IMG/VR virus record: IMGVR_UViG_3300038416_000116
Coordinates: 1-54,333 of that record
Length of the DNA stretch: 54,333 nucleotides
Source of the DNA: a virus
Reading direction: 5' to 3' (one strand)
Part shown: one piece after another, positions 18,878 to 54,333 of the stretch
Numbering within the stretch: the first letter of the stretch is position 1
Layout: each line of letters begins with the position of its first letter
Translations under genes and position numbers: made by a program
Notes under the pieces: model-generated
The model's input: the letters and a program-made list of their open reading frames with translations, nothing else
What the model was told of the DNA's origin: nothing
The model's database searches: none

Positions 18878-19375
18878 ATGGATTTAAAATCATTTTACAA
18901 AACCAACAAACAAAAGTTAATCTACGACCTAAAAGATATCCCTGTCGACATTCTTAGATTTCGTAAATCTCATCGGAGACTTACTTCCATCGAAAGGATG
19001 GTATCAGCCTTTCTACAAGATTGCGTCCGTTACGAAATTATACAAGGGTGCTCTACCCAAGAAATCATTAAAATAGGGAAGACAGGAAATTTCATTATAG
19101 TTGATTTTTATATTAAAGAACCTTCTCTGGTTATTGAAGTAGATGGTCCTGAACATAACGTGATGCGCGATGAAAAAAGAGACAAGGCTCTTTTCAAGTT
19201 GTTCGGAATAAAAGTTATTCGCGTGACAAATAAAGATGTGGAAGAAAATAATAAAAAGACGCGAGAATTTTTACTCAGAGAAATTTTATCTGCAAAAGAC
19301 TTTTCCTCGAGACAAATTGCATCAGCTATTAAAAAATATTGGATTACTAAAGATAGCGAGCGAAATTCTCTATGA
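18878..19375 (+). CDS. PD-(D/E)XK nuclease, DUF559/Vsr-like
   Basis: 165 aa. The core reads NFIIVDFYIKEPSLVIEVDG (D76, E87, D89), then PEHN and a helix DEKRDKALFKLFGIKVIRVT, matching the DUF559/very-short-patch-repair-like fold in which D...E-x-D-G coordinates metal for DNA cleavage. The N-terminal 60 residues are basic. This is a common phage accessory nuclease, free-standing and possibly homing. It is the first gene right of the divergent promoter and its stop overlaps the next start (ATGA). Confidence 0.8.
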   Translation: MDLKSFYKTNKQKLIYDLKDIPVDILRFRKSHRRLTSIERMVSAFLQDCVRYEIIQGCSTQEIIKIGKTGNFIIVDFYIKEPSLVIEVDGPEHNVMRDEKRDKALFKLFGIKVIRVTNKDVEENNKKTREFLLREILSAKDFSSRQIASAIKKYWITKDSERNSL

Positions 19376-19563
19376 GTTATTCAGCAGCAGATCCTCATGA
19401 GGAAAAACTTTGTTGTGTGGTACAATCCATTGGGAAACTTTATGGAAAAAATATTTGCAAACAATGTTTAAAAAATATTATTAATAAAAAAGGAGTTAAT
19501 GAAAATACATTCCCAGATATTTTAGCATTACTAAACGCATTCACGCTACATGGTAAAACTTAA
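19372..19563 (+). CDS. LCC-family protein, partial finger
   Basis: 63 aa. The LCC signature is at residues 13-15 (EEKLCCVVQ) but only one later pair is present (CKQC), so the finger lacks one Cys pair. The rest is a Lys/Asn-rich helix and a hydrophobic C-terminus. Start overlaps the nuclease stop by 4 bp. It is the first of the long series described in the summary; function unknown. Confidence 0.75.
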   Translation: MSYSAADPHEEKLCCVVQSIGKLYGKNICKQCLKNIINKKGVNENTFPDILALLNAFTLHGKT

Positions 19564-19870
19564 AAAAGATAGCGCTCAAAAATTATTAGATGGTGTATGC
19601 CATTTAACAGGTCATAGACTTTTTCCACAGAAAGATGTTTGTGAAAGATGTCGTAGGCCCCTGATATACTATGCTATTAGTCTCAATAATAACTATGTAA
19701 AGACAGAAGCACAGGTGCTTAAGACATCAAAATTAATTATTGAATTAAATGTATACCAAGGAGACAGAGTAGAGATAACTGCTCTATCTCGACGAGGCAC
19801 GAAGTACCGTAAATTCCATAAAAAACTTAAAATAAGAAAGCCTCGTCGTACTCTAGTCTTTAAGTTTTAG
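19550..19870 (+). CDS. GH-family zinc protein with basic C-terminal domain
   Basis: 106 aa, the longest member of the second small family. GVCHLTGHRL (residues 16-25) corresponds to the C-L-x-x-G-H core and is followed by CERCRRPL. Residues 45-106 are strongly basic and beta-rich (VYQGDRVEITALSRRGTKYR), unlike other members, which suggests RNA or DNA binding. Overlaps the preceding gene by 14 bp. Confidence 0.7.
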   Translation: MVKLKKDSAQKLLDGVCHLTGHRLFPQKDVCERCRRPLIYYAISLNNNYVKTEAQVLKTSKLIIELNVYQGDRVEITALSRRGTKYRKFHKKLKIRKPRRTLVFKF

Positions 19871-19943
19871 GCACCATTATCAAGAACAACTTATAGGTTT
19901 ATTTATTAAATAATCCATGAAATGTTCTTAGTGTATTATAAAA

Positions 19944-20279
19944 GTGATTAATAAATTTCGAGATATTGTAGTTCATCGTATTACCCAATCTGACTATATA
20001 GCCCCTCTTTGCTGCGTCCTCAATAAAATGGACGTCTATCCTGAAGGATTTATTTGTGGGGAACATCTAGGGGAAATGTACGAGACGTTCGAAAATCAAG
20101 AATCATACTTCAAACATTGGGATCTTACAACATGGTTAAGCGATCCTTTTAATAAATTAGGTGAACCATGTCCGACCTCTGCTGCGTCCTCAATCCCTCC
20201 AATAAATGCTTCTCCTGTAAGCAGCCCGTCTGCGACTTCCATTACTGGGCAGAAGAAGGACACTTCCTCTGGGAAATAA
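19944..20279 (+). CDS. LCC-family protein with long out-of-frame tail
   Basis: 111 aa from a GTG that directly follows a TATTAT box, so the transcript may be leaderless. APLCCVLNK is at residues 21-29 and a C-x2-H pair (ICGEH) at about 37-41. The last 37 residues (PCPTSAASSIPPINASPVSS) are the out-of-frame shadow of the next LCC gene, which starts 112 bp before this stop. A lost stop codon is the likely reason, so the functional product may be shorter. Confidence 0.55.
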   Translation: MINKFRDIVVHRITQSDYIAPLCCVLNKMDVYPEGFICGEHLGEMYETFENQESYFKHWDLTTWLSDPFNKLGEPCPTSAASSIPPINASPVSSPSATSITGQKKDTSSGK

Positions 20280-20362
20280 CCTGGAGTGCTACCAAACTGA
20301 AGTGTCTCAAAACAAACGAAAGCTGTTACACTACAGTTAACTCGTATTTACTATACGAATAA
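20168..20362 (+). CDS. LCC-family protein
   Basis: 64 aa with a complete finger: SDLCCVLNP, then CFSC, CDFH and a later Cys pair region (LKCLKTNESCY). The codons for Leu-Cys-Cys are CTC-TGC-TGC. It lies wholly downstream of or within the tail of the previous gene and 43 bp before nrdJ, so it may be expressed from the same transcript as the reductase. Confidence 0.8.
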   Translation: MSDLCCVLNPSNKCFSCKQPVCDFHYWAEEGHFLWEITWSATKLKCLKTNESCYTTVNSYLLYE

Positions 20363-20405
20363 CCTGATTAGCTGTATAAATTAATATCATTGTAAGGAGT
20401 ATATA

Positions 20406-22175
20406 ATGTTCGTCCCCGAAAATTTTTCTCTCGAAATTTTTAAGAAGCGTTACGCGTTCACTGAAGAAGAGACATGGGTAGAAGCTTGTAGCAGAGTCGC
20501 CCGTCAAATGAGTTTGGCGGAAGTACCTGAAAAACAAAAAGCTTACTATGATAAATTTTTAGAAGTGCTACAAGCTAACTTGTTTGTACCGGGGGGAAGA
20601 ATTTGGTATAACTCGGGGAGAAATAGCCCTCAACTTCTTAATTGTTTTGTGCTAGATCCTAACAAAGATTCTAAAGAAGGGTGGGGTAAGTCAGCCTACA
20701 ACATGATAGTAACTTCTATGACCGGAGGAGGTTGTGGAGATGACTTTTCAGATATTCGTCCTAAAGGGGCGGCTATTGAAGGACAAAAGGGCGTAGCCCC
20801 TGGTTCTGTAGAGCTTATGAGACTCATTGACGGATGTGCTAAGCCCGTTAAAGCAGGGGGTCAACGAAGAGTTGCTTTAATGTTTAGTCTCGATCTTGAT
20901 CACCCTGATGTAGAAGAATTTTTAAATGCTAAATTAGTTAAGGGGGAACTTACTCACGCAAATGTATCTGTTCGTAGTAAGAGGACAAAAGAATTTATTA
21001 AAGCTGTTAAGAATGATGGTGACTGGGATCTTAGTTGGAAAGGTAAATATAAAAAGACTGTAAAGGCTAAAGAAATTTGGCAAACTATTGTACGTAATGC
21101 TTATAACTCTGCAGAACCAGGCTTCTTAAATTGGGAGTTGGTTGAAAGTGAGAGTAACATTAGCTACATTGAGCCCTTAACTACAACTAACCCTTGTGGA
21201 GAGATTGCTTTATCCGCTTACGATTGTTGCTGCTTAGGACACATAGTTCTCCCTAGATTTGTTTCTAATGGCGAAGTAGACTGGTCAGCTATAGGTAATA
21301 CCATTAGAACGTCCGTAAGATTTTTAGATAATGTTTTAACAGTTAATCATTATCCCTTAAATGAAATGAAAACTAAATCACATAATCTACGACGGATTGG
21401 TTTAGGTACTACAGGATTAGCCGACATGTTAGCTACTCTAGGCTACAAGTACGGCTCTAAAGAAGGGAATCAATTCGTTGATAAACTTTTTAGATTTATT
21501 TCTAAAGCTGCCTACGAAGCGTCTATTATGTTAGCTGTCGAAAAAGGGCCATTTCCTATGTGTATCCCTTCCAAACATGTGGAATCAGGCTTCATGAAAA
21601 GAATGCCTGAGAAAATTAAATCTCTAGTTCTTGAGCAAGGCATTCGTAACTGCGCCATCTTAACACAAGCTCCTACAGGAACAGTTTCTATTCTATCAGG
21701 GAACTGCTCTAGTGGAATTGAACCAATGTTTGCTCCTGCGTACGAAAGACGTTATTGGGATGGAGACTCAAGAAAAATGGAATTAGTTTTTCATCCCTTA
21801 TTCGAACAATTTATGGCTGAAGGTAAAAGCGTAGATCATTTTGTAGGATCTAGAGACATTTCTGTAGAAAATCATATGGAAGTTCAAAAGATTATCCAGA
21901 AGCATGTCGACAACGCTGTATCAAAAACAATCAACATCCCTGAAGATTATCCTATGGAAGATGTTGAAAAGTTGTGGCTGCAATATCTTCCCTTCTTAAA
22001 AGGTACTACATTTTATAGAGAGAATACGAGAGGATATATTGGAGAAGGAGGAGTTGTTGAGGAGCCTCCATTAAAAGCTATTTCATTAAAAGAGGCTAAG
22101 GCAAGATTTGCAGAGAAGCATTCTACTGAAAATAAAACTGTAAATGATTGCCCTAAAGGCGTTTGTGAAATTTAA
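20406..22175 (+). CDS. nrdJ: Adenosylcobalamin-dependent (class II) ribonucleoside-diphosphate/triphosphate reductase
   Basis: 589 aa. Reduces ribonucleotides to deoxyribonucleotides for phage DNA synthesis using a B12-derived radical. Key residues: Cys80 in LLNCFVLDP, the N-x-C-x-E active site TNPCGEI (N262, C264, E266), the P-T-G-T-x-S glycyl/phosphate loop APTGTVSILSGNCSSGIEP, and a C-terminal redox pair CPKGVC (C582, C587) that re-reduces the active site. The class II assignment fits the compact length, lack of a class I partner nearby and the VPGGRIWYNSG motif. AAGGAG precedes the ATG. It has an LCC gene on each side. Confidence 0.93.
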   Translation: MFVPENFSLEIFKKRYAFTEEETWVEACSRVARQMSLAEVPEKQKAYYDKFLEVLQANLFVPGGRIWYNSGRNSPQLLNCFVLDPNKDSKEGWGKSAYNMIVTSMTGGGCGDDFSDIRPKGAAIEGQKGVAPGSVELMRLIDGCAKPVKAGGQRRVALMFSLDLDHPDVEEFLNAKLVKGELTHANVSVRSKRTKEFIKAVKNDGDWDLSWKGKYKKTVKAKEIWQTIVRNAYNSAEPGFLNWELVESESNISYIEPLTTTNPCGEIALSAYDCCCLGHIVLPRFVSNGEVDWSAIGNTIRTSVRFLDNVLTVNHYPLNEMKTKSHNLRRIGLGTTGLADMLATLGYKYGSKEGNQFVDKLFRFISKAAYEASIMLAVEKGPFPMCIPSKHVESGFMKRMPEKIKSLVLEQGIRNCAILTQAPTGTVSILSGNCSSGIEPMFAPAYERRYWDGDSRKMELVFHPLFEQFMAEGKSVDHFVGSRDISVENHMEVQKIIQKHVDNAVSKTINIPEDYPMEDVEKLWLQYLPFLKGTTFYRENTRGYIGEGGVVEEPPLKAISLKEAKARFAEKHSTENKTVNDCPKGVCEI

Positions 22176-22359
22176 ATCATTTAAAGTACCCTGTTGCGAC
22201 GCTAAGCCTTTCGCCAAATGTAACGTTTGTAATAAAATTGTTTGTAAACGTTGTATGCGAAAGGAGCACATGAAGATGGAGCACGATCAGCAAATTTGTA
22301 CTGTTAGAAATTTTGTCGCGGGATGGGATCCTGTTATACTTCCAGATGAGCGAGATTAA
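22144..22359 (+). CDS. LCC-family protein, most B-box-like member
   Basis: 71 aa from the ATG at 22144; a GTG at 22165 would cut the overlap with nrdJ from 32 to 11 bp. The signature is VPCCDAKP (Leu replaced by Pro), then CNVC-x4-CKRC-MRKEHMKMEH. The double His after the last pair reproduces the C-x2-C-x4-C-x2-C-x4-H-x4-H spacing of B-box zinc fingers more closely than other members. Confidence 0.75.
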   Translation: MIALKAFVKFKSFKVPCCDAKPFAKCNVCNKIVCKRCMRKEHMKMEHDQQICTVRNFVAGWDPVILPDERD

Positions 22360-22576
22360 ACTTTGTTGTCTAATAGATCCCATGAGTTTAGAAACAGGGA
22401 TTATGAAATTATTTGATATCGAAAAATTCGGAAGGCCTACTATTTGTAAAAAATGCTACGACGACTTGATTGACGGAATCCCTGAAGCTATAAGAGGCAC
22501 TAGCACAAAAGGTGTATGGGAAGCGATTATTGAACATGTACATTTTAAAATTAAGCAAGAGCATTTACAAAAATGA
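22346..22576 (+). CDS. LCC-family protein, long spacer
   Basis: 76 aa starting MSEIKLCCLIDP at the ATG inside the last codons of the previous gene. A 24-residue spacer separates the CC from the only later pair (TICKKC), after which an amphipathic helix follows (GVWEAIIEHVHFKIKQEHL). One finger half is therefore missing. The longer open frame begins 11 codons upstream but lacks a ribosome site. Confidence 0.75.
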   Translation: MSEIKLCCLIDPMSLETGIMKLFDIEKFGRPTICKKCYDDLIDGIPEAIRGTSTKGVWEAIIEHVHFKIKQEHLQK

Positions 22577-22785
22577 CTGAAACTACTACATTTAATTTGT
22601 GCTGTGCTCTTAACGCAGCTACAGAATGTGTCTTTTGTAGAGCAAGATTTTGTAGCATATGTAGATACGACCCTAATCATTCAATAGAAGCTTTTGTTAC
22701 TCTTCCCTATAAAACTAGGGCTAAGGTTCAGGTAAGATGTAAAAATACAGATAGACTATGTATGCTAGTACCTTTAATGAGATGA
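22573..22785 (+). CDS. LCC-family protein
   Basis: 70 aa. FNLCCALNAATECVFCRARFCSICRYDPNH contains the complete CC, C-x2-C, x4, C-x2-C and His series. A basic, Cys-containing C-terminus follows. ATGA overlap with the upstream stop; no ribosome site. Confidence 0.8.
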   Translation: MTETTTFNLCCALNAATECVFCRARFCSICRYDPNHSIEAFVTLPYKTRAKVQVRCKNTDRLCMLVPLMR

Positions 22786-23018
22786 TTAGACTTTGTTGTA
22801 CCTTAGATAGTAGAATTTCTTGTACCTCTTGTAATGAAGTATGGTGCTCCACATGCTGGAAATCGCTAGGAGTATTAGATCATAAGCCCTCTGTAACTAG
22901 GGGACAAGATATGAGTCATACGGACACCTGGCATTGTAATATTTCAAATGAATATGTATGCTTTGATTTTAAATCGCAAGACGAGGTAATATTTAGAGTT
23001 TGTCCCCACAGATCTTAA
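22782..23018 (+). CDS. LCC-family protein with extra His/Cys region
   Basis: 78 aa. Starts MIRLCCTLDSRISC at the ATGA overlap. The open frame has a further ATG 8 codons upstream, which is less likely. It has the complete finger (CTSC, CSTCW), LDH eight residues after, and a C-terminal part with WHC, VCF and VCPH that could hold a second metal. Confidence 0.8.
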   Translation: MIRLCCTLDSRISCTSCNEVWCSTCWKSLGVLDHKPSVTRGQDMSHTDTWHCNISNEYVCFDFKSQDEVIFRVCPHRS

Positions 23019-23039
23019 CAATTAATTTGTATTATTTGT

Positions 23040-23288
23040 ATGGCTCGAATTCATCACCCTTCTAGTCTATGCTGTCTTCTAAATCCCCATGGTAGATGTT
23101 CTGCCTGCACGCTCAAACTATGTCAGGACTGCTTTTCAGATCACCTCGAAAAGAACGATTGCGAAGTACAATTAAAATTTAGTAGTAAGCACGACGAGGG
23201 TCCTTATACTTTTCATACCTCTATGAAATGTTCTCTTCTCGGAAAGCCCGCCATCTACGTCGAAGTAGATACTGATTTAAATCTATAA
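23040..23288 (+). CDS. LCC-family protein
   Basis: 82 aa. SSLCCLLNPHGRCSACTLKLCQDCFSDHLEKND shows the full finger with His four residues after the last Cys. The C-terminal half (KFSSKHDEGPYTFHTSMKCS) is beta-like and unrelated to neighbours. One of the few members separated from its predecessor (22 bp gap). Confidence 0.82.
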   Translation: MARIHHPSSLCCLLNPHGRCSACTLKLCQDCFSDHLEKNDCEVQLKFSSKHDEGPYTFHTSMKCSLLGKPAIYVEVDTDLNL

Positions 23289-23509
23289 TGGATCCTAAAC
23301 TTTGTTGTATGCTCCATGCATTATTCATGTGTGATGCATGTGGAGAAAAATGGTGTTCAGTCCATTATAAAGAATTTGATGATCTACACCCTGCAATTAT
23401 GTACTATGAAGGAGTAATCTGGTCTGTGGCGTGTAAAAAAACACATATTAGGGTAGAGCTTCAAGAAAATAATGGATTAGCCGGTGAAGGGCACTACGTA
23501 ATTCCATGA
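23288..23509 (+). CDS. LCC-family protein
   Basis: 73 aa, start in TAATG shared with the previous stop. MDPKLCCMLHALFMCDACGEKWCSVHYKEF: the final pair is C-x2-H rather than C-x2-C. The C-terminal half has a beta-strand pattern (GVIWSVACKKTHIRVELQEN) ending in a Gly-rich turn. Confidence 0.82.
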   Translation: MDPKLCCMLHALFMCDACGEKWCSVHYKEFDDLHPAIMYYEGVIWSVACKKTHIRVELQENNGLAGEGHYVIP

Positions 23510-23691
23510 GTAATCTATGTTGTGTACTAAATCCTTATAAATGTAATGCATGTAACACTTTCTTAACATTAAATGGGAAAATTCAAGAAGGTTCTCTTTG
23601 CAGTGCACATTATGTACCTGTACAAGGTACTATGTGTGAACAACATTATTACAAATCTTTAAGAAGAGCTTTTCGAAGATCTAAAAAATGA
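23506..23691 (+). CDS. LCC-family protein with three later pairs
   Basis: 61 aa. The spacer after LCC is one residue short (NPYKCNAC). Then CSAHY and CEQHYY follow at wider spacing, giving C-x2-C plus two C-x2-H pairs. The C-terminus is basic (RRAFRRSKK). ATGA overlap at the start. Confidence 0.78.
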   Translation: MSNLCCVLNPYKCNACNTFLTLNGKIQEGSLCSAHYVPVQGTMCEQHYYKSLRRAFRRSKK

Positions 23692-23861
23692 ACAATCTCT
23701 GCTGTGTCCTAGATCCATGGTTAATATGTAAAAATTGTGATTGGAGATCTTGTTATAAATGTAGTTATGCAGACGTAAAAGATATGACCACTTCTATGAA
23801 AACACATAAAATCAAATGTGTTAAACCTGAAATAGTAATGAATGTGATGTATAATGGATAA
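23688..23861 (+). CDS. LCC-family protein, 57 aa
   Basis: Starts MNNLCCVLDP within the last codon of the preceding gene and ends TAA at 23859-23861, overlapping the next start. It has CKNC, CYKC and a later single Cys. It is shorter than a 60-codon cutoff but has the complete signature, so it is a real member missed by length filters. Confidence 0.8.
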   Translation: MNNLCCVLDPWLICKNCDWRSCYKCSYADVKDMTTSMKTHKIKCVKPEIVMNVMYNG

Positions 23862-24087
23862 TCTTTGTTGCGTCTTAGATAAAGTATACCAATGTACGGC
23901 TTGTGACAGAGTGTTTTGTCAAAAATGTTTTGAGATCTCCGACCATACGTGGAAGTCAGGACCTTCAATAAAAGATTTTAGTTATCTCACTCACAGATGG
24001 TGGAGATGTATTCAAGCTCATACTAACGTAGCACCTAGAACTTCTATTCCTACTAAACCTCTAATACTAGAGCCTATAGATGACTAA
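23854..24087 (+). CDS. LCC-family protein
   Basis: 77 aa. MDNLCCVLDKVYQCTACDRVFCQKCFEISDH has the complete finger with His six residues after the last Cys. The C-terminal half has an aromatic stretch (HRWWRCIQAHTN) and then a Pro-rich tail. Confidence 0.82.
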   Translation: MDNLCCVLDKVYQCTACDRVFCQKCFEISDHTWKSGPSIKDFSYLTHRWWRCIQAHTNVAPRTSIPTKPLILEPIDD

Positions 24088-24295
24088 ACTTTGCTGTATC
24101 TTAAATAAGGCAATTCATTCTAACTGGAAAGGAGATGAACAATTTTATTGTATTAATTGTGCTACAGATCTTCTTACAGAAGAATACGGCGACGATTTTA
24201 GACGAAAACATAAAAACAGTGAGCTAGGTGATCGACTAAGAAAAGATTTTTCATTCTTTCATCCGGTTCAAGATTGTTCAAAGGCATGTTCATGA
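24080..24295 (+). CDS. LCC-family protein, degenerate finger
   Basis: 71 aa. MTKLCCILNK is followed by an 18-residue spacer without Cys and then a single pair CINC. The remainder is a charged helix. The C-terminus has DCSKACS. Eight-base overlap with the upstream gene. Confidence 0.75.
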   Translation: MTKLCCILNKAIHSNWKGDEQFYCINCATDLLTEEYGDDFRRKHKNSELGDRLRKDFSFFHPVQDCSKACS

Positions 24296-24489
24296 TTGAT
24301 TGTAAAGGGACGCTTATCGAAAAATGCGATATAGCAACTTATTCCCTTTGCTGTGTTCTAAATCCCCACTGGATTTGTGACGTATGTGATCACAGAGAAT
24401 GTCTATTGCACGTAGGCCAAAAAAATAATGTTTGGTACACTTACGCAAAAAAATATTATTGTTATAGCTGTTATCAAAATTTACTATGA
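24292..24489 (+). CDS. LCC-family protein with N-terminal extension
   Basis: 65 aa from the ATGA overlap at 24292 (MIDCKGTLIEKCDIATYSLC). Two extra Cys precede the signature. The finger is SLCCVLNPHWICDVCDHRECLLH and a second Tyr-rich pair CYSCY ends the protein. Confidence 0.8.
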   Translation: MIDCKGTLIEKCDIATYSLCCVLNPHWICDVCDHRECLLHVGQKNNVWYTYAKKYYCYSCYQNLL

Positions 24490-24665
24490 GTGAAACTTCT
24501 GTCGCCATAGCTGAATGTCTACCCTGTTTATTAAAACCTCGAAAGGTTTGTCATCGATGTAAAAAGAAATATTGCCTCTATCATTTTACGACGGACAACG
24601 GATCCATTGTGAGAACAAAAGGTTATAACAATTGGGTTTGTCATAAATGTACACATCCAAAATAA
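24486..24665 (+). CDS. LCC-family variant (CLPC type), 59 aa
   Basis: Start at the ATGA overlap. The signature becomes ECLPCLLKP (C-L-P-C instead of L-C-C), followed by CHRC, x4, CLYH and a final CHKC. The same CLPCLL variant opens the partial gene at 54237, so this is a recurring sub-type rather than decay. Confidence 0.75.
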   Translation: MSETSVAIAECLPCLLKPRKVCHRCKKKYCLYHFTTDNGSIVRTKGYNNWVCHKCTHPK

Positions 24666-24667
24666 TT

Positions 24668-24889
24668 ATGAAATTACTTTGTTGTATGTTAAAAGCTTTC
24701 GCTAAATGTTCTTTTTGTAATGAACAATGGTGTGCATCTCACTGGTTACCAAATCCTCATGATCATCGTGCTGGAGGAGAATTTGAAACAAGTTGGATAT
24801 GTCCTAAGTATAATAAATCTCTTACCTGGAAACTACGAGTCGCAAATCCTGGCATCTTAATTGACGTCAATGACAAAGAAGCCTGCTGA
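24668..24889 (+). CDS. LCC-family protein
   Basis: 73 aa starting MKLLCCMLKAFAKC; an upstream in-frame ATG would overlap the previous gene. The finger is CSFCNEQWCASHW with a His-rich follow-up (PHDHRAGG). The C-terminal half has a WICPKYNKSLTWKL motif that recurs, altered, in several members as C-P-x-x-x-K-[RK]. Confidence 0.82.
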   Translation: MKLLCCMLKAFAKCSFCNEQWCASHWLPNPHDHRAGGEFETSWICPKYNKSLTWKLRVANPGILIDVNDKEAC

Positions 24890-25112
24890 AGAAGGTGACG
24901 TAACCAAATTTAAAGAACAACTCAAGAGAGTTGAATTCATACCTAGACCTTCTTTATGTTGTGTTTTAAACTCTTGGCTTAAATGTAAAAACTGTACTTG
25001 GACACTATGTGAGGAGTGTTTGAATTTAGGACGTCCAAAAGATATGTATCATTACGCAGCATATTTGTCACATGAAATTTATGGATGCAAAGAACATTTC
25101 CAACTCGATTAG
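24870..25112 (+). CDS. LCC-family protein with N-terminal helix
   Basis: 80 aa from the ATG at 24870 (a TTG three codons upstream is disfavoured). About 26 charged residues precede SLCCVLNSWLKCKNCTWTLC, then CEEC. The C-terminus YGCKEHF adds a possible C-x2-H. Overlaps the previous gene by 20 bp. Confidence 0.78.
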   Translation: MTKKPAEEGDVTKFKEQLKRVEFIPRPSLCCVLNSWLKCKNCTWTLCEECLNLGRPKDMYHYAAYLSHEIYGCKEHFQLD

Positions 25113-25128
25113 GCCTATAATTGGTACC

Positions 25129-25338
25129 ATGGCGACCGCCGCGGCCTTACCAAAAACGCGCGATTGTCGCCTTTGCTGCTTACTCTCTCCGGAACATAAA
25201 TGTGATACCTGTCTCATGCAAGTTTGTAAAGTATGCTGGAAAGATCCTGATATAAATCCTGGAGTAACTTATTTTGTATTTGAAAAGGAAGGTAAGGTAT
25301 CTTATTGCTCTAACTGCAACCCTAAAAAGAGTTTCTAA
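25129..25338 (+). CDS. LCC-family protein
   Basis: 69 aa. The ATG at 25129 follows GGTACC rather than a ribosome site. MATAAALPKTRDCRLCC is followed by CDTC, CKVCW and a C-terminal CSNCNPKK, giving four pairs. The open frame upstream to 25072 overlaps the preceding gene and is not family-like. Confidence 0.78.
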   Translation: MATAAALPKTRDCRLCCLLSPEHKCDTCLMQVCKVCWKDPDINPGVTYFVFEKEGKVSYCSNCNPKKSF

Positions 25339-25357
25339 AAAAATTTTATAATTTAAA

Positions 25358-25540
25358 ATGAAAGTTAAAAGATTATGTTGTGTTCTCAATCCTGCCAATC
25401 ACTGCAGCCAATGTATGGATCAAGTTTGTAATGAGTGCTACTGGATTATGGGTAAGACCCAAGTGATGTCTAAAATGGATTCTGATGGTGTACATATTTG
25501 GGAACAACGTTACTTATGTGATGACTGCCATGGATCCTAA
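25358..25540 (+). CDS. LCC-family protein, 60 aa
   Basis: MKVKRLCCVLNPANHCSQCM then CNECYW, and a C-terminal pair CDDCHGS. It follows a 19-bp AT-only gap, one of the few places in this stretch where a promoter could sit. Confidence 0.8.
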   Translation: MKVKRLCCVLNPANHCSQCMDQVCNECYWIMGKTQVMSKMDSDGVHIWEQRYLCDDCHGS

Positions 25541-25721
25541 AGATTTACTTTCTGACGATCGCAAACTGTGTTGCATCTTGGAACCTTATGATCGATGTGA
25601 CAAGTGCAGTCAAGAATTTTGTGACTCTTGTTTAATATTTGACGGAGGTCATCAATATGACCATCCAATGTTATATTGTCGCAGATGTTTTAAAAAATCA
25701 TATGGAAAATATTTATCATAA
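25530..25721 (+). CDS. LCC-family protein
   Basis: 63 aa from the ATG overlapping the previous stop by 11 bp. RKLCCILEPYDRCDKCSQEFCDSC has ideal spacing, followed by GGHQYDH and a second pair CRRC. The longer open frame begins 15 codons earlier inside the neighbour. Confidence 0.8.
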   Translation: MDPKDLLSDDRKLCCILEPYDRCDKCSQEFCDSCLIFDGGHQYDHPMLYCRRCFKKSYGKYLS

Positions 25722-25899
25722 CAATTTGTGTTGTCTAATACAGCCTCAAATTATTTGTGAGGTATGTGATTTTAAAGTATGTCGGGAATGTGACATAGCT
25801 TTTGGATATTGGACAATGAAAACACATAATCCTGTTTGCACTGCAGAGTTCTCTAACTGGGAAGATTCTTCTATGACCATAAGGATGTATTATGAATAG
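25702..25899 (+). CDS. LCC-family protein
   Basis: 65 aa. Starts MENIYHNNLCCLIQP, overlapping its predecessor by 20 bp. Finger CEVCDFKVCREC, then KTHNPVC. The C-terminus is Trp/Met-rich without obvious domain. Confidence 0.78.
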   Translation: MENIYHNNLCCLIQPQIICEVCDFKVCRECDIAFGYWTMKTHNPVCTAEFSNWEDSSMTIRMYYE

Positions 25900-25919
25900 G
25901 GGCTTACGAAAACCGCGAT

Positions 25920-26168
25920 ATGAAACCTAAACTGTGCTGTCTTATATCGCCCGAATGGGTATGTGATACATGTAAATTCCAGACATGCAACGTATGCTGG
26001 TCGATCGACTATCCTGATAAGGCCGCAAACACCTATACAACTTATCCAGGTAAAACTTTTTGTAATGAGTGTTATCCTAAAAATATGGTTTTTAAGACCT
26101 CTACATATATAATCGGATCGATGCAAGAGATATATCTTCGCAGCGTACAAGCAACAGCCACAGAATAA
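25920..26168 (+). CDS. LCC-family protein, last of the first array
   Basis: 82 aa. MKPKLCCLISPEWVCDTCKFQTCNVCW, then TTYPGKTFCNECYPKN, a second pair also found in the member at 25129. It ends the first cluster; beyond it lie 420 bp of non-coding sequence and a module with a different gene style. Confidence 0.82.
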   Translation: MKPKLCCLISPEWVCDTCKFQTCNVCWSIDYPDKAANTYTTYPGKTFCNECYPKNMVFKTSTYIIGSMQEIYLRSVQATATE

Positions 26169-26491: not shown

Positions 26492-26560
26492 CCCGGGAGG
26501 GGGGGAGGGGGGAGGGGGGAGGGGGAGGGGGAGGGCCGGTCGGGGATACTCCCTCCCGGG
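26492..26560 (+). repeat. G-quadruplex-prone tract inside an inverted repeat
   Basis: Seven G-tracts of 3-7 bases separated by single A residues (26495-26535). CCCGGGAGGG (26492-26501) is matched by its exact complement CCCTCCCGGG (26551-26560). The element lies in the leader between the promoter candidate at 26345 and the first gene at 26588. Both DNA and RNA forms could fold; possible roles are transcription pausing, replication control or a boundary. Confidence 0.6.
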
Positions 26561-40880: not shown

Positions 40881-40881
40881 C

Positions 40882-44261: not shown

Positions 44262-44263
44262 TT

Positions 44264-45634: not shown

Positions 45635-45652
45635 CACAATTTGAGAAATGCA

Positions 45653-45892: not shown

Positions 45893-45894
45893 AT

Positions 45895-46128: not shown

Positions 46129-46129
46129 T

Positions 46130-46703: not shown

Positions 46704-46863
46704 ACTTTGCTGTGTCTTAAATACCTATCTTAAATGTTCTACATGTGATTGGGTTCTTTGTATGGCTTGCAGATCAATAGAATCTGTAAATTGTTATGCG
46801 CTACACAGAAAACAACTTGGATGCAAAGGTCATACTATATTAGTTAACGTCTATGGAAAATAA
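46693..46863 (+). CDS. LCC-family protein, 56 aa
   Basis: MSNKLCCVLNTYLKCSTCDW, then LCMACRSIESVNC, and a C-terminal LGCKGHTILVNVYGK. Overlaps upstream by 11 bp and downstream by 11 bp. Confidence 0.8.
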   Translation: MSNKLCCVLNTYLKCSTCDWVLCMACRSIESVNCYALHRKQLGCKGHTILVNVYGK

Positions 46864-47020
46864 AGAGAACCTAGCCTGCTTAATTAAGGGTCACGAAGAG
46901 ATAGCAGGAACTTCAAATAACGTTACGTCGCGTTGTAAGTATTGCGGCAGAGAGATTGAGTGCAGAGCAATACATGGCGGCGGGGATAAGGATTGTATAT
47001 GGCAACTCTATGGCGAATGA
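46853..47020 (+). CDS. GH-family protein, 55 aa
   Basis: MENKENLACLIKGHEEIAGT, then SRCKYCGREIECRAIHGGGD. Single C-x2-C and an acidic Trp-containing end. It overlaps both neighbours by 11 bp. Confidence 0.77.
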   Translation: MENKENLACLIKGHEEIAGTSNNVTSRCKYCGREIECRAIHGGGDKDCIWQLYGE

Positions 47021-47216
47021 GAACCTAGCGTGCCTGTTAAATGGACACAAACCCACAGGTGTAACCCTTAATACAAGGACGACTTGCTGCTACTGTCACG
47101 AGCCGCTTTACTATGTGGGTGATATATTTTGGGACGAGCAATACTGTTGGAAAACTAAAGAAGAGATGGACAAAACAAATGATAGACCAACCGGATTCGA
47201 TCCAGATTATCCATAA
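47010..47216 (+). CDS. GH-family protein
   Basis: 68 aa from ATG 47010. MANENLACLLNGHKPTGVTL, then TCCYCHEPLYYVGDI. Directly follows another GH gene with the same N-terminal ENLAC, so the pair arose by duplication. The longer frame upstream to 46956 is an overlap artefact. Confidence 0.77.
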   Translation: MANENLACLLNGHKPTGVTLNTRTTCCYCHEPLYYVGDIFWDEQYCWKTKEEMDKTNDRPTGFDPDYP

Positions 47217-47490
47217 CGACTTATGTTGTGAGGTGTCGCCTTTCTTGTGCTGCTACGCGTGTGGTGCTAAGAAATGTGCAGATCATTACTACCGATTACA
47301 GGAACACTTAGCAGACACACACCTTAAGGTACTTCAAACCGATGATCACTACGTGACGCACTGCACGATCACAAATACTCTTTGCTGTCAAGTTACGCCG
47401 GGAAGACTAGACTTTGTTCAGAAGTGCACTCATGGAAAAAATCCAAATGGATCAACATCTGTCATATCGAAAGCTAGTAATGCCGGGTGA
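47179..47490 (+). CDS. Tandem LCC protein with two signatures
   Basis: 103 aa from ATG 47179. HNDLCCEVSPFLCCYACGAK then KCADHYY forms a full first unit. TNTLCCQVTPGRLDFVQKC begins a second, incomplete unit from about residue 74. It is the only member with two LCC openings and looks like a fusion of adjacent genes. It overlaps the GH gene by 38 bp and the thioesterase gene by 59 bp. Confidence 0.7.
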   Translation: MIDQPDSIQIIHNDLCCEVSPFLCCYACGAKKCADHYYRLQEHLADTHLKVLQTDDHYVTHCTITNTLCCQVTPGRLDFVQKCTHGKNPNGSTSVISKASNAG

Positions 47491-47833
47491 TCTCAATTCG
47501 GCTCATACCCTCTTTGGCGGCACAATAATGAAATGGGCCGACGAAGCTGTAAGCATTTACGTTATGTGCCAACTGGGTACTAAGAAGGTTGTTACATTAA
47601 AGGTCAGTGAGATCCTTTTTAAAGAACCTGTTCAAGAAGGAGACGTCCTCGAGTTCATGGCAAGCACTGTTAAGGTAGGCAACACATCTATTACAGTCAA
47701 GTTAGATGTGCAACGCAAGTCAATCGAAGACAAGACTATAGTAGCCCCAACTGTTCTGTCATGTGAGTTCGTCTTCGTTGCAGTCGACGATAAGGGTCGG
47801 CCCACGCAACATAAGCTTTCAAAACGAGTATAA
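47432..47833 (+). CDS. Hotdog-fold acyl-CoA thioesterase, YciA-like
   Basis: 133 aa from ATG 47432 (ATG 47447 possible). LVMPGDLNSAHTLFGGTIMK, then WADEAVSIYV matches the P-x-D-x-N-x(3-4)-[LI]-F-G-G-x-[LI]-M-x-W-x-D-E core of acyl-CoA thioesterases, with Asp/Asn as catalytic candidates. The C-terminal half has VGNTSITVKLDVQR. Would hydrolyse acyl-CoA; its use to a phage is unclear, perhaps membrane-lipid or host signalling change. No Cys-rich part of its own. Confidence 0.85.
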   Translation: MEKIQMDQHLSYRKLVMPGDLNSAHTLFGGTIMKWADEAVSIYVMCQLGTKKVVTLKVSEILFKEPVQEGDVLEFMASTVKVGNTSITVKLDVQRKSIEDKTIVAPTVLSCEFVFVAVDDKGRPTQHKLSKRV

Positions 47834-47916: not shown

Positions 47917-48129
47917 ATGAGCGCTAAGCTTTGTTGTATCCTTAGCCCACGAGACTATTGCACATACTGCGAACAGCCTATGTGCGATGACTGTGGAAGA
48001 ATACGCGAACTTAAAAAGAAAGAGGCGTACAACTGGCATAAACTAGCTCCAGGATATAGTTCTTGTACCCCTCGAGATAGAAATTTTGTATTTGATGGAC
48101 ACTATTACGGCGGCAAGCCTGTAGTATGA
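47917..48129 (+). CDS. LCC-family protein
   Basis: 70 aa. MSAKLCCILSPRDYCTYCEQ, then MCDDCGRIRELKKKE. The C-terminal half is Gly/Tyr-rich with one Cys. Unusually for the family, GGGAG lies upstream. Confidence 0.82.
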   Translation: MSAKLCCILSPRDYCTYCEQPMCDDCGRIRELKKKEAYNWHKLAPGYSSCTPRDRNFVFDGHYYGGKPVV

Positions 48130-48299
48130 GAAAGCGTTGCACTCGTCTTTGCTGTGTTGTTAACCCTTTAGTTATGTGTGTCCATTGTAAAGAAAAACTT
48201 TGTCAGACGTGCGTCTGGAATACGGAATGCTTTCACAAGCTAGCTGAGGTAGGTCAAGATGGAAAACCAAGACACGCCTTTAGGATCTTCGACAACTAA
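48126..48299 (+). CDS. LCC-family protein, 57 aa
   Basis: MRKRCTRLCCVVNPLVMCVH, then CKEKLCQTCVWNTECFH. A basic N-terminus with one extra Cys precedes the full finger. Overlaps the next gene by 41 bp in a different frame. Confidence 0.8.
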   Translation: MRKRCTRLCCVVNPLVMCVHCKEKLCQTCVWNTECFHKLAEVGQDGKPRHAFRIFDN

Positions 48300-48525
48300 A
48301 CTTAAGTTGTGTTGCATCCTTAATGGTACAACGTATATGCCTGAGCTATGCAATTGCGGCTTCAGGGCTTGTGACGAGTGTATAGCGGTGGCGCAGAGAG
48401 CCGGCGATGGTTGGTACATTTCAAAATACTTTGATGGCCTAACAACTCTAGCAGATCTTCACTACGAGTATTCAAATAAGAAGTGCCCTAGATTTCACGT
48501 AGAGAAAAAATTAGATGGTGAATAA
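48259..48525 (+). CDS. LCC-family protein
   Basis: 88 aa. LKLCCILNGTTYMPELCNCG, then ACDECIAVAQRAG. First pair is C-x-C. The C-terminal half has YFDGLTTLADLHYEYSNKKC and a CPRFH. The LADLH segment recurs in the gene at 44264 (YIADLHAVF). Confidence 0.8.
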   Translation: MENQDTPLGSSTTKLKLCCILNGTTYMPELCNCGFRACDECIAVAQRAGDGWYISKYFDGLTTLADLHYEYSNKKCPRFHVEKKLDGE

Positions 48526-48730
48526 TAAACTTTGTTGTCTTCTAAACCCTAGCTACAAATGTTATTTGTGCAACTGGTTAAGGTGCAAAGACTGTTGGGA
48601 TGGGCTCGAACAAGGCTCGCACTATACAATGAGGGTCGGGCAAGAAGTAGATCTTTACGATGTCAAATATTTTAAGCGTAGACATAAAAAGGAAGGACGT
48701 ATATGTTGTCTGGAAGGAAAAACTCTATGA
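48515..48730 (+). CDS. LCC-family protein
   Basis: 71 aa. MVNNKLCCLLNPSYKCYLCN, then LRCKDCWDGLEQGSHYTMRV and a second CC near the C-terminus (GRICCLEGK). Complete finger. Confidence 0.82.
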   Translation: MVNNKLCCLLNPSYKCYLCNWLRCKDCWDGLEQGSHYTMRVGQEVDLYDVKYFKRRHKKEGRICCLEGKTL

Positions 48731-49043: not shown

Positions 49044-49331
49044 ATGGATTCAGTCGAAGAAAATATGGCGTGGATGCGTCTAGATTTAGAAAGAGGGCTG
49101 CTCGTAGAGACACACAATGAGCTCTGCTGTGAACTCAACCCTAGAATCTATTGCAAAGGTTGTGGTAAGAAATGGTGTGAAGAACATGATACACGCAGAT
49201 GGTCTGATGAGGACTTCGATCACCAGACTCTCGGAGGGAATTTTTATAAATGTCCTATAGCCGATAAGGTAAAGAATACCTACGATATGGGACCTCACCC
49301 AGCCATACTTATACCTCAGACACTAAAGTAG
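49044..49331 (+). CDS. LCC-family protein with N-terminal helix
   Basis: 95 aa. A 26-residue acidic helix (MDSVEENMAWMRLDLERGLL) precedes ELCCELNPRIYCKGCGKKWC, EEH. GNFYKCPIADKVKNTYD corresponds to the C-P-x(2)-[KD]-[KR] strand of other members. Followed by a 45-bp gap with a TATTAAT -10-like box for the next gene. Confidence 0.82.
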   Translation: MDSVEENMAWMRLDLERGLLVETHNELCCELNPRIYCKGCGKKWCEEHDTRRWSDEDFDHQTLGGNFYKCPIADKVKNTYDMGPHPAILIPQTLK

Positions 49332-50691: not shown

Positions 50692-51195
50692 GTGGCTGCC
50701 GAGACTCGTGACAAAGACGGGCTCATCCTTATGGAGTATCCTTTTGAGACAGCTATTACTCTAGATAAGAAGTGCTGGGTAGATATCGCTCAGATGCTTC
50801 TTAAACAAGAGAATCTCAAAGGAATCAACATTGAGCTTCAACCAGGTAAATGGTATCAATCTAAAAGAAGTCGGGGTCCTTACCTAGGTAAACTGGTCGA
50901 CTTCGTGTTTGGTCCTGAGATTATATATCTTTATGGATCCCACGTAGCGTACTGGAAGTACAAGAAGAAGGTGCATGAAGTTATACATATCGCGGTTGAT
51001 AGAGAAGACAAAGATATTCTAAGTACTTTGCTTCACGAGATCGCTCATGCACATCACATAGGTGATGATCATGGTAAGAAGTGGGAAGCAGAGTATCTTC
51101 GTCTAATGGACGAATACTATGTTTCCAGTTCGGCAGGACAATTGTACGAGACGCTAGTAGATCTGTACGAACCATCTTATGCAAGTACAAAATAG
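50692..51195 (+). CDS. SprT-like zinc metallopeptidase
   Basis: 167 aa from GTG behind GGAGGTCTT. STLLHEIAHAHHIGDDHGKK carries HExxH (H115, E116, H119) and a third ligand candidate H127 in the H-G-x-x-W pattern typical of SprT-like proteases, which cut DNA-protein crosslinks in cells. No C-terminal zinc ribbon is present. Adjacent to the AAA+ gene (13-bp gap). Confidence 0.8.
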   Translation: MAAETRDKDGLILMEYPFETAITLDKKCWVDIAQMLLKQENLKGINIELQPGKWYQSKRSRGPYLGKLVDFVFGPEIIYLYGSHVAYWKYKKKVHEVIHIAVDREDKDILSTLLHEIAHAHHIGDDHGKKWEAEYLRLMDEYYVSSSAGQLYETLVDLYEPSYASTK

Positions 51196-51457
51196 ACTCT
51201 GTTGCATAATTAATTCCTTTGGATACTGCTACTACTGCGATGAGCAATGGTGTCGACCTTGTTGGAACGTCGTAGTAAATGGTGGGAATGAATGGCTGGG
51301 AAGTAAATGTCCTGTGGCAAATTCTCTTAACAGAAGCATCTCTTATGGTAGGAGAGGAGGACATTGTGATTGGGCTACAGGAGTTGACATGCCTAGAGAT
51401 AATGTTAAGAAGTTCAACGCGGCCATAATTGATCTAAAGAAACTAATGGAACCATAG
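51179..51457 (+). CDS. LCC-family protein
   Basis: 92 aa. MQVQNRLCCIINSFGYCYYC, then WCRPCWNVVVNGG, and a long C-terminal part with KCPVANSLNRSISYGRRGGH. Overlaps the metallopeptidase gene by 17 bp. Confidence 0.82.
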   Translation: MQVQNRLCCIINSFGYCYYCDEQWCRPCWNVVVNGGNEWLGSKCPVANSLNRSISYGRRGGHCDWATGVDMPRDNVKKFNAAIIDLKKLMEP

Positions 51458-51756
51458 TGTCTAAAAATCTTAAACTATGTTGCCTCTTATCAAGACATCC
51501 CGTCGCAAGGTATGCCTTAGATAACTACGACATGAGACATTCTGATTGGTGTACGTGCGGATTTGGACTATGTGATACGTGCGCACAAGCTATATCAAAA
51601 GGTAGCAAACCTTCTAGGCTTTGGCCTAAAGATAACACATCTGGACACGTAGGAGGATACTTATCCTACGTCGACGAACACTACCTCTACAATCGAGAGT
51701 GTCCTTGGACCAAAGCATTCGTTAAACAAGAAGGCGAGCCTAACTTAAATGGATAA
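51457..51756 (+). CDS. LCC-family protein, GTG start
   Basis: 99 aa from a GTG sharing one base with the previous TAG. KLCCLLSRHPVARYALDNYD, then WCTCGFGLCDTCAQAISKG, and ECPWTKAFVK. The first pair is C-x-C after a long spacer, as in the gene at 48259. Confidence 0.8.
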   Translation: MSKNLKLCCLLSRHPVARYALDNYDMRHSDWCTCGFGLCDTCAQAISKGSKPSRLWPKDNTSGHVGGYLSYVDEHYLYNRECPWTKAFVKQEGEPNLNG

Positions 51757-51970
51757 TAATCTTTGTTGCGTCTTAAATCCTAAGCTGAAGTGCTTCGATT
51801 GTAGAGCACAACTGTGTACTAATTGTAGTTGGGCAGGCAAGTTAAATACAAGAACGCATCTCAGAGTAGCAGGGATTTATGTTTTGTGTCGGAAGTGTTT
51901 AGATAAAGCAGAAGGATTTGAAGTAGACGAATTCATACTAGTCTCAACGTGGGAGGGAGATTTCCAATGA
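51749..51970 (+). CDS. LCC-family protein
   Basis: 73 aa. MDNNLCCVLNPKLKCFDCRA, then LCTNCSWAGK, and VLCRKCLDKAEGF. Four pairs in total. Eight-base overlap upstream. Confidence 0.82.
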   Translation: MDNNLCCVLNPKLKCFDCRAQLCTNCSWAGKLNTRTHLRVAGIYVLCRKCLDKAEGFEVDEFILVSTWEGDFQ

Positions 51971-52481: not shown

Positions 52482-52757
52482 ATGAACAAATTGTGTTGTG
52501 CCATCAATGGTACTTCCTCTTGCGCCACGTGTGCTAAGCCCTTATGTGAAAAGCATACGCTAGGAAGAGGCAGTCATTATGGATACAATCACAAGGTACA
52601 AAGGTGTCTACAGTGTCATAGAAAATTCGTTCAATTTCATCGAACAGGGAAAGCAGGTGTCTCCTTTAAAGCCTGGCTTTCCCAGATTTCAAGACGTCGA
52701 AAGAAGCAAGGCAAGGTAGCTATGCCTCGGCCTCAAAGAGAGTGGTTTAGTTTTTAA
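52482..52757 (+). CDS. LCC-family protein with basic tail
   Basis: 91 aa. MNKLCCAINGTSSCATCAKP, then LCEKHTLGRGSHYG and RCLQCHRKFV. The C-terminal 35 residues are strongly basic (LSQISRRRKKQGKVAMPRPQ). It is one of very few members with a GGAGG ribosome site, which the upstream RNA structure can sequester. Confidence 0.83.
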   Translation: MNKLCCAINGTSSCATCAKPLCEKHTLGRGSHYGYNHKVQRCLQCHRKFVQFHRTGKAGVSFKAWLSQISRRRKKQGKVAMPRPQREWFSF

Positions 52758-52837: not shown

Positions 52838-53146
52838 ATGCGACTCGTTCCCTCCAACGAAGCCGCCGGAGTTTCTTTATTTATGAAACATATCACTGAG
52901 AACAAATTTACGGGCAACTCTTTATGTTGCCTTCTTAATCCATTAGCATCGTGCACTAAATGTAATTGGACAATTTGTACCAAATGTTGGGATGCATACT
53001 CTGAAGTAGCACCCCCTCCTTTAGATGATGCTTTTAGTTCTTGTAGCATTGATGCAGTGCATAACGCTTGCATGAAGAGAAAGTGCTACATGAAAAGAGA
53101 TTGCCATAGAGGGGAAGACTTCAAAAGAACGGATTATGAAGACTGA
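52838..53146 (+). CDS. LCC-family protein with N-terminal extension
   Basis: 102 aa from ATG 52838; ATG 52883 gives an 87-aa form more typical of the family. GNSLCCLLNPLASCTKCNWT, then ICTKCWDAY, and a Cys/His-rich C-terminus (KRKCYMKRDCHRGED). The start lies directly against the inverted repeat. Confidence 0.78.
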   Translation: MRLVPSNEAAGVSLFMKHITENKFTGNSLCCLLNPLASCTKCNWTICTKCWDAYSEVAPPPLDDAFSSCSIDAVHNACMKRKCYMKRDCHRGEDFKRTDYED

Positions 53147-53351
53147 ACATTTAGATACCAAACTCTGTTGTATCTTAGATCCGATTAGGGCGTGCGCTAA
53201 ATGCGATTGGGCAATTTGTTGGACGTGCTACTACGCAGCATCAAAAAAGTTAAGAACAACGAGTATATTTCCTATGCATGATAAAGTATCAAATCATGCG
53301 ATGGCGGAAGGAAGAGTTCCATTCGGAGATATTATAGTATATACTTTCTAA
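53136..53351 (+). CDS. LCC-family protein
   Basis: 71 aa. MKTEHLDTKLCCILDPIRAC, AKC, then ICWTCYYAASKK. The finger CAKCDWAICWTC is nearly that of its upstream neighbour (CTKCNWTICTKC), a clear recent duplication. C-terminal halves differ. Confidence 0.83.
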   Translation: MKTEHLDTKLCCILDPIRACAKCDWAICWTCYYAASKKLRTTSIFPMHDKVSNHAMAEGRVPFGDIIVYTF

Positions 53352-53361: not shown

Positions 53362-53553
53362 ATGTCATGTAACGATGGCGGCGGATGCGGTAGCTGTGAA
53401 GACTGTCCGGAGAAGCAAGAAGCAAAGAAACAGATGGCTTTATGGAAGAGTATCTTTACAAAGGCGCTCCAGGCAGATGGTGGAGAAGGACGTCTCCTTT
53501 CTCCAGAAGAGGAAGCGCTAGTAAAGAAGACGCTTGAGGGCTTTCCAGAGTAA
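53362..53553 (+). CDS. Small Cys-cluster protein
   Basis: 63 aa behind AAGGAGATAATT. MSCNDGGGCGSCEDCPEKQE has four Cys in 13 residues (C-x5-C-x2-C-x2-C), possibly an Fe-S or zinc site, followed by two helices (ALWKSIFTKALQADGGEG; LSPEEEALVKKTLEGF). Not LCC by signature. Confidence 0.65.
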   Translation: MSCNDGGGCGSCEDCPEKQEAKKQMALWKSIFTKALQADGGEGRLLSPEEEALVKKTLEGFPE

Positions 53554-53555
53554 TT

Positions 53556-53729
53556 ATGATACGACTACATCTGCATAGACTTAACTTGTGGACATCGGGG
53601 GTGGAGCTAGGGATATCCATCATGTCCCTAGTAGACAAGCGCTATAGCATGTCAGCAGTATGTTTCTTCGTATCTATAATTCTTTATTGCCTCTACCACA
53701 TAACAGACGAAAAATTGTACGGTTTCTAA
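53556..53729 (+). CDS. 57-aa membrane protein
   Basis: MIRLHLHRLNLWTSGVELGI, then MSAVCFFVSIILYCLYHITD as a transmembrane helix. Fits exactly between neighbours (stop at 53729, next ATG at 53730). Confidence 0.55.
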   Translation: MIRLHLHRLNLWTSGVELGISIMSLVDKRYSMSAVCFFVSIILYCLYHITDEKLYGF

Positions 53730-54002
53730 ATGGCTAACCTTTGTTGTGTCCTAAGTCCAATCGTACACTGTAAGGCTTGTGGAATCAAATGGTGTGCTTC
53801 CTGTTGGACAGCAGCGTGCAAGCCTAGCAATACGTATGGAATATTCTTGAATAGAATCCATGACAAAGATATAGACTCGCACGCAAAGAGCCCTAGAGTA
53901 TGTAGTCTTACGAAGAGAATCGTTGGTGTCATAGAGAATCGCTATACTCCTTGGGAGACACGTGAAGGTAAAGTCGGACTAACCTTTGGGCCTATACCGT
54001 AA
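53730..54002 (+). CDS. LCC-family protein
   Basis: 90 aa. MANLCCVLSPIVHCKACGIK, then WCASCWTAACKPSN, and RVCSLTKRIVGVIENRYTPW. Archetypal finger and the C-x-L-T-K-R strand motif of the 42833 group. Confidence 0.84.
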   Translation: MANLCCVLSPIVHCKACGIKWCASCWTAACKPSNTYGIFLNRIHDKDIDSHAKSPRVCSLTKRIVGVIENRYTPWETREGKVGLTFGPIP

Positions 54003-54015
54003 GGAGAAAGAATCT

Positions 54016-54240
54016 ATGGGTAATTGGTACTTCATAGTAGGGCTTATGTTCGCTGGAGCTACGGGATATATTCTAGATAAAACTCTCCCTGAAGAGTTCC
54101 AAGTTCTCACTGTAGTATGCAGTTGGGGCATGATAGCTTTATGGGGCGTCGTATTAGGATTAGCTCTGCTAGCCTTACCAGTGGTCATCGGTGTCTACGT
54201 AGGCAAGCTTCTTTTCACCACATGGAAGGAGCTAACGTGA
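54016..54240 (+). CDS. 74-aa multi-pass membrane protein
   Basis: MGNWYFIVGLMFAGATGYIL, then LTVVCSWGMIALWGVVLGLA and ALPVVIGVYVGKLLF: three hydrophobic segments. AAGGAGAAAGAATCT precedes the ATG; the open frame begins 10 codons earlier without one. Holin-like size and topology; role unproven. Confidence 0.65.
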   Translation: MGNWYFIVGLMFAGATGYILDKTLPEEFQVLTVVCSWGMIALWGVVLGLALLALPVVIGVYVGKLLFTTWKELT

Positions 54241-54333
54241 CTGAAAATTGTCTTCCATGTCTATTAAGACAAGGGCATTCATACTGTGTTCATTGTGAAG
54301 AACCTATATGCGACGTATGTGTAACTAAAATGG
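54237..54333 (+). CDS. LCC-family variant (CLPC type), 3' end outside the window
   Basis: GTG overlapping the preceding TGA. TENCLPCLLRQGHSYCVHCE, then ICDVC, cut by the window edge. It combines the CLPCLL opening of the gene at 24486 with a GH pair after it. The array therefore continues to the right. Confidence 0.72.
   Translation, partial: MTENCLPCLLRQGHSYCVHCEEPICDVCVTKM

Follow-up and report, generated by a model that had tools for sequence, protein, structure and literature searches.

Why would a phage carry some sixty versions of one very small protein? The question is raised by IMG/VR virus record IMGVR_UViG_3300038416_000116, which we analysed whole (54,333 bases, hereafter the window; G000 in comparisons with other IMG/VR records, whose working labels run from G002 to G022). 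From position 19372 to the right-hand edge, which cuts the last of them, lie short plus-strand genes whose products, about 50-105 amino acids long and typically ~70, share a Leu-Cys-Cys (LCC) head. An earlier note on this DNA had described a hyper-expanded family of about 61 such genes in a phage, and both parts of that description hold. A profile hidden Markov model (HMM) built from the window finds 52 significant frames, all on the plus strand and none on the minus strand (E<0.01, Z=1000), and 54 after iteration with relatives, against 0, 1, 0, 0 and 0 matches in five second-order Markov shuffles of the window. The DNA pattern TGYTGYNNNNTNNNNCC matches 37 times on the plus strand of the window and 0 times on the minus strand; its reversed control matches once on each. 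The curated list has 68 entries, 8 of them of a sister type, and adding an insertion variant at 35562-35756 brings the LCC type to ~61, roughly seven of which are weak. When all small ATG frames are grouped by single-linkage blastp, with no profile involved, 40 fall into one cluster (38 are LCC) and the next largest has 2; the LCC family is the only large family among these frames. The window itself almost certainly represents only part of a jumbo-phage genome, because its terminase matches gp1 of Bacillus phage G (31% identity, the closest cultured terminase) and related IMG/VR records reach 210 kb.

The reading frame beyond the LCC motif stays open for 68 codons on average (minimum 48), and synonymous codons are mixed at the Leu, Cys, Cys, Asn and Pro positions of the head, which together show constraint at the level of the protein. 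One orthologous pair in the relatives has a synonymous divergence (dS) of 1.19 and a nonsynonymous divergence (dN) of 0.21, and that one pair is under purifying selection. A nucleotide-level origin, as a repeat or a regulatory head, was ruled out by the mixed codons, by the lack of excess head-codon sharing and by the lack of an above-chance upstream motif.

What kind of protein is it? Most members consist of one domain of ~60 residues with the layout x-L-[C]-C-x-[LIV]-N-P-x3-C-x2-C-x4-C-x2-[CH]-(W)...H...C(P), which offers up to eight conserved ligand-type positions. In a 78-member alignment C7, C18 and C23 are invariant and L5, C6, C15 and C50 are at least 90% conserved, as is H35 in a tighter member set. 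Many members can be aligned over 50-70 residues, within and between phages, and their variable parts are loops. The earlier note had each protein join a common finger to an unrelated C-terminal half, its business end. This picture is not supported: since the histidine near 35 and the cysteine near 50 are conserved (at least 90% in the better-aligned sets), most members do not have unrelated second halves but form one continuous domain. Exceptions exist: one member of 239 residues is a true fusion to an FGE-type domain (41987-42706), and a few others are long.

The strongest evidence for a metal site comes from an exchange of ligands. Of 152 members with a full core, 138 carry C6 without C4, 12 carry C4 without C6, one carries both, and one, an LECC variant that retains its CC pair one residue further on, carries neither. 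When C6 is absent, C4 is present in 12 of 13 cases (Fisher p=8e-16, a value that overstates independence, as the exchange may reflect few evolutionary events). The spacing of the C4 type is C-x2-C-x7-C-x2-C-x4-C-x2-[CH], and the consensus spacing of the B-box is C-x2-[CH]-x7-C-x2-[CD]-x4-C-x2-[CH]. The exchange thus restores B-box spacing; the zinc-finger-like spacing seen by the earlier note is supported in its B-box/treble-clef form, and from it we infer that the proteins probably bind zinc. AlphaFold models of the members at 42833 and 44046 are moderate, with a predicted local distance difference test score (pLDDT) of 76-78 and a predicted template modelling score (pTM) of 0.60-0.63. Such proteins could conceivably work through sheer amount, tying up zinc or shielding thiols as metallothioneins do, and a cysteine content of 9% across the family, together with the high copy number, would suit metal buffering of this kind. 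But the ligand spacing is exact, a lost ligand is relocated, and the non-ligand Leu, Asn and Pro are conserved while all else is openly divergent, whereas a dose effect would predict homogenised copies; we regard buffering as very improbable.

Beyond the ligands little is held in common. The 23-residue core averages about 40% identity among members, yet core positions other than the ligands and Leu, Asn and Pro show 13% identity against 6.5% in shuffled sequences, such that the paralogues are nearly saturated outside these residues. A sister family, L-[AG]-C-[LIV]-[ILV]-[NK]-G-H...C-x2-C, has 8 genes in the window, within 37604-47216; it has the head motif in common with the LCC type and lacks the second metal site. 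It occurs also in G003, G010, G020 and G021, and among the compared records only in LCC-bearing ones. These observations bear on whether the family is a set of adaptors, in which a shared N-terminal face (LCC-x-[LIV]-N-P) would dock a single partner, for instance host RNA polymerase, a protease or an AAA+ machine of the phage, with the variable parts recruiting different targets. The head is the most conserved stretch, the sister type keeps the same L-x-C-[LIV]-[LIV]-[NK] head on another metal layout, and two AAA ATPases are encoded in the region. However, the conserved positions can be put down to metal ligands, a core leucine and a turn, and no further surface residues are conserved in a core so divergent elsewhere. 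The earlier note's modular adaptors are weakened by this, the conserved positions being almost exclusively metal ligands and likely core residues, and we think a docking role rather unlikely.

Does the domain belong to a known family? Most of the weak Pfam and PDB matches are to cross-brace fingers (AN1, B-box, TRIM, PML, ZZ and FYVE), among them the B-boxes of TRIM2, PML, TRIM28 and TRIM3 (PDB profiles, E 0.1-0.6). The likeness to the B-box (PF00643 and the ANCHR-like PF22586) lies in ligand order and spacing, especially in the C4 type, and in the histidine downstream. The difference is that the main LCC type has C-C in place of C-x2-[CH] and takes as its last ligand a cysteine far downstream; B-box spacing is in register only in most of the 12-13 C4-type members, the first cysteine coming two residues later in the other 138. 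The B-box Pfam profile did not match across members (best E 0.0039-0.0046, 2-3 members; the member at 22165-22356 scores 14.2 bits, below the cut-off of 27), and the ANCHR B-box profile reaches 3.6e-4 at best, in 4-5 members. AN1-like fingers (PF01428) have a similar Cys/His ladder ending in a histidine and a cysteine, but differ in the spacing of the first and last ligands, and most LCC members are unmatched by their profile (6 of 44 matched, best 1.7e-4). A G020 sister-type protein resembles the DUF1660 prophage proteins (PF07874) weakly (E=0.0053), a match that is under the curated cut-off and concerns the sister GH type only, not LCC. Because the profile tests failed, we place the LCC family formally outside the B-box and AN1 families. 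Zinc fingers often bind nucleic acid, and copies as numerous and diverged as these might recognise specific DNA or RNA sequences and regulate genes of the phage or the host. But cross-brace fingers of the B-box and AN1 type usually bind proteins, and the isoelectric points of LCC proteins range from 4.8 to 9.6 (5th-95th percentile), with many members neutral or acidic, which argues against one shared nucleic-acid role; regulation of this sort seems to us quite improbable.

Where else does the family occur? LCC members number 66-69 in G003 (210 kb), about 20 in G020 (27.6 kb) and about 22 in G021 (39 kb), and 1-5 in each of G002, G004, G005, G010 and G022. None was found in G011, G014 or G015, whose ribonucleotide reductases are 71-79% identical (one borderline G015 frame was lost on re-iteration), and none at E<=0.01 in phage G, phage 121Q or five unrelated large records. 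The strict DNA pattern, which would reveal expanded sets but miss many singletons, found no genuine copy in 84,980 prokaryote species genomes; a cellular origin was rejected, the single match there being antisense to a coding gene and spurious. A search of viral contigs with one single member returned no matches, and tblastn of one member against cultured phages gave only E>=0.1. At the sensitivity used, the family is restricted to phages. One LCC gene, G003 39837-40166, reads as split when the record is cut into 20-kb pieces, perhaps merely through the cutting; it is open on an unbroken record, and the matching G002 3201-3530 is an open frame of 110 residues. A recurring AVCCLLNPGLNCIFCKG frame, near-identical in many IMG/VR contigs, mimics the motif and was set aside as what looks like an unrelated repeated element.

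Large paralogue sets are themselves not new to giant phages. Hua et al. 2017 (PMC5646251) had already described tandem arrays with more than 30 paralogues in jumbo phages G and 121Q, and it was to this paper, by way of a jumbo-phage review, that our reading on phage zinc-finger and paralogue families led; no other report matched, and Pfam, PHROGs, PDB and the papers searched hold no phage family of the LCC kind. The earlier note's view that no known system was at hand therefore stands insofar as no known family fits significantly, and falls insofar as such arrays were already on record: LCC is a new protein family, and the general phenomenon is known (PMC5646251). The LCC set, with 54 members in the window and 66-69 in G003, resembles these arrays in having more than 30 paralogues in one phage. 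It differs in that its genes are partly dispersed, their divergence is near-saturated, and very similar head-to-tail neighbours are not seen even though 39 of 63 successive members are contiguous or overlapping. In Bacillus phage G (JN638751) the largest paralogue cluster has 36 members, 29 in tandem at 352560-370998 and the others scattered, and 32 of the 36 carry C-x-[ILMV]-C...C-x2/3-C, a CPxC...CxxxC zinc-type module. Its proteins are about 200 residues long with one four-cysteine module, against ~70 residues and up to eight ligands in LCC, and the array is a different, independently hyper-expanded zinc-type family. We know of no earlier mention of its zinc-type nature, a point at which no search was aimed. 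The largest small-gene cluster of 121Q (21 by our clustering) is without CxxC. Neither phage has a significant match to LCC (best E in 121Q 0.067, partial), and LCC appears not to be homologous to the known jumbo arrays.

How did the family diversify? Adjacent members are no more similar than random pairs, so recent tandem duplication was ruled out. The nearest relative lies within the same phage for 57.5 of 116 members, against 34.0 +/- 4.8 expected, and the tree has 49 changes of phage label, against 61.6 +/- 2.6 when shuffled and a possible minimum of 3. Because there is both a same-phage excess and this mixing, much of the diversity either is older than the split of these phages or has moved between them, and some duplication followed. 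Several members retain their own C-terminus across phages (e.g., G003:54194 and G020:24035). A Shine-Dalgarno motif precedes 13-28% of LCC genes in G000, G003 and G020 and 43% in G021, compared with 10-16% of random ATG codons and 44-55% of other small genes, the latter figure inflated by a gene caller that rewards such motifs. The simplest reading is that many members are probably translated by coupling to the upstream gene rather than from a ribosome-binding site. Weak ribosome-binding sites in G000, G003 and G020 might also fit a store of mostly silent cassettes that are shuffled into an expressed locus, as might a truncated head at 42798 next to a 16-nt repeat, with the FGE fusion nearby. 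But head-codon sharing does not exceed expectation, such that no recent gene conversion is seen, and almost all genes have start codons of their own; we consider this a long shot, the least probable of the explanations weighed here. The 16-nt repeat CCTAAATCGATATGAA stands at 41976 and 42822, flanking the fusion gene, and the truncated head (LCCVLNPKSI, then a stop) lies beside it, directly upstream of 42833. A recombination scar is possible at 41976-42833.

We think it most likely that LCC proteins are a diversified repertoire of small, zinc-stabilised proteins for host takeover or counter-defence, and give this a probability of about 0.5. The host-targeting effectors of the earlier note may still apply. 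The LCC proteins would be independent, very small members of a lineage-specific family, all sharing one compact B-box/AN1-like zinc domain with two metals, whose metal-stabilised core could tolerate almost any surface, allowing duplicates to diverge into a repertoire of small binding proteins produced by the non-structural plus-strand gene clusters. Most likely each member would work on its own during takeover, inhibiting or redirecting a host protein or a component of defence or serving as a decoy, and the gain and loss of members would follow the host's repertoire. The closest functional likeness is to a collection of diversified small binding proteins from a non-structural region. Several points weigh against this proposal: the effector logic is drawn wholly from analogy; Foldseek searches with the LCC models gave no significant structural neighbour; the tree mixes phages, which leaves no clear sign of an arms race inside individual phage lineages; and in three of the four phages LCC genes mostly lack a Shine-Dalgarno motif, and some may be poorly expressed. 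A more far-reaching version, which we hold tentatively and at distinctly less than even odds, is that a jumbo-phage clade carries an effector-like repertoire of more than 60 proteins per genome on a B-box-like scaffold, each with a different host or defence target, and that the phage G CPxC array is an independent example of this strategy.

The genes are listed in the table. The structural genes of the window (head protease, portal, terminase) occupy the minus strand of its first 18.7 kb; from 18.9 kb the plus strand encodes a ribonucleotide reductase, a MoxR-type ATPase (30247-31359), an AAA ATPase, a tRNA and many small genes. Near the MoxR gene, 32626-33810 matches DUF2201 metallopeptidase plus VWA-like protein in Pfam (1.5e-24); its best PHROG match is named HNH endonuclease, a name that looks wrong here. 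ARAGORN places a tRNA-Met (CAT) at 37255-37340 and Rfam instead a tRNA at 37409-37475, neither tool reporting both. A 4HBT thioesterase-superfamily protein (7.5e-16) is encoded at 47447-47833, within the LCC region, and a G-rich run (GGGGGGAGGGGGGAGGGGG and neighbours) at 26500-26535 comes right after the first LCC array.

Table. Genes and remnants of the LCC and sister types in the window
Feature	Position	Strand	Match
Weak LCC member (LCCVVQS..CKQC)	19372-19563	+	
Degenerate LCC head (LCCVLNK...CGEH), within longer frame	19944-20279	+	
LCC member	20168-20362	+	HMM 1.7e-13
First dense array, 19 LCC genes, near-continuous, often overlapping	22165-26168	+	
First array, starts 1-10	22165, 22346, 22573, 22782, 23040, 23288, 23506, 23688, 23854, 24080	+	
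First array, starts 11-19	24274, 24486, 24668, 24861, 25129, 25358, 25521, 25702, 25920	+	
LCC member, atypical spacing	30088-30240	+	HMM
LCC head on 127-residue protein, different C-terminus	34666-35049	+	HMM
LCC member with insertions (LCCAMGEAPWMCRYCKTAYCGDC)	35562-35756	+	
LCC member	35965-36141	+	HMM
Two sister-type genes (LGCLINGH / LGCVLNGH..CxxC)	37604-37768, 37770-38027	+	
LCC member	38024-38254	+	HMM
Sister type (LACLIKGH)	38789-38959	+	
LCC member	38952-39128	+	HMM
LCC member	39412-39621	+	HMM
Sister type (LGCLINGH)	39623-39796	+	
Sister type (LGCLIKGH)	40350-40508	+	
Degenerate LCC-like (PCCWLDP)	40618-40737	+	
C4-type member (CLAC)	41028-41258	+	HMM
LCC member	41258-41527	+	HMM
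LCC head fused to FGE-sulfatase-type domain, 239 residues	41987-42706	+	Pfam PF03781 E=1.9e-43
Truncated LCC head remnant	42798-42832	+	
Four overlapping LCC genes	42833-43063, 43060-43272, 43269-43442, 43432-43689	+	HMM
Sister type (LGCLVKGH)	43686-43844	+	
LCC genes	43829-44062, 44046-44261, 44264-44476	+	HMM
LCC genes, second with long insertion	44879-45124, 45121-45438	+	HMM
LCC gene; weak member	45653-45892; 45895-46128	+	
LCC genes	46309-46509, 46458-46703, 46693-46863	+	HMM
Two sister-type genes (LACLIKGH, LACLLNGH)	46853-47020, 47010-47216	+	
LCC member with second, partial LCC motif	47179-47490	+	HMM
LCC genes	47917-48129, 48126-48299, 48259-48525 (alternative start 48307), 48515-48730	+	
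LCC member, motif at 49122	49044-49331	+	HMM 7.5e-14
LCC genes	51179-51457, 51457-51756 (weak), 51749-51970	+	HMM
LCC member	52482-52757	+	HMM
LCC genes	52883-53146, 53136-53351	+	HMM
LCC member	53730-54002	+	HMM
C4-type member (CLPC), cut by window end	54237-54333	+	HMM

What, then, would such a family mean for giant phages? Much of a phage genome is given over to a new protein family; its presence or absence among close relatives, its near-saturated surfaces and its fixed ligands make the role of small giant-phage paralogues testable. The parallel with phage G suggests that metal-stabilised mini-scaffolds may be a recurrent route by which giant phages arrive at protein repertoires, and such scaffolds are a likely source of new anti-defence proteins. 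If the more far-reaching version given above is true, the LCC family would be a phage counterpart to the big effector families of eukaryotic pathogens.

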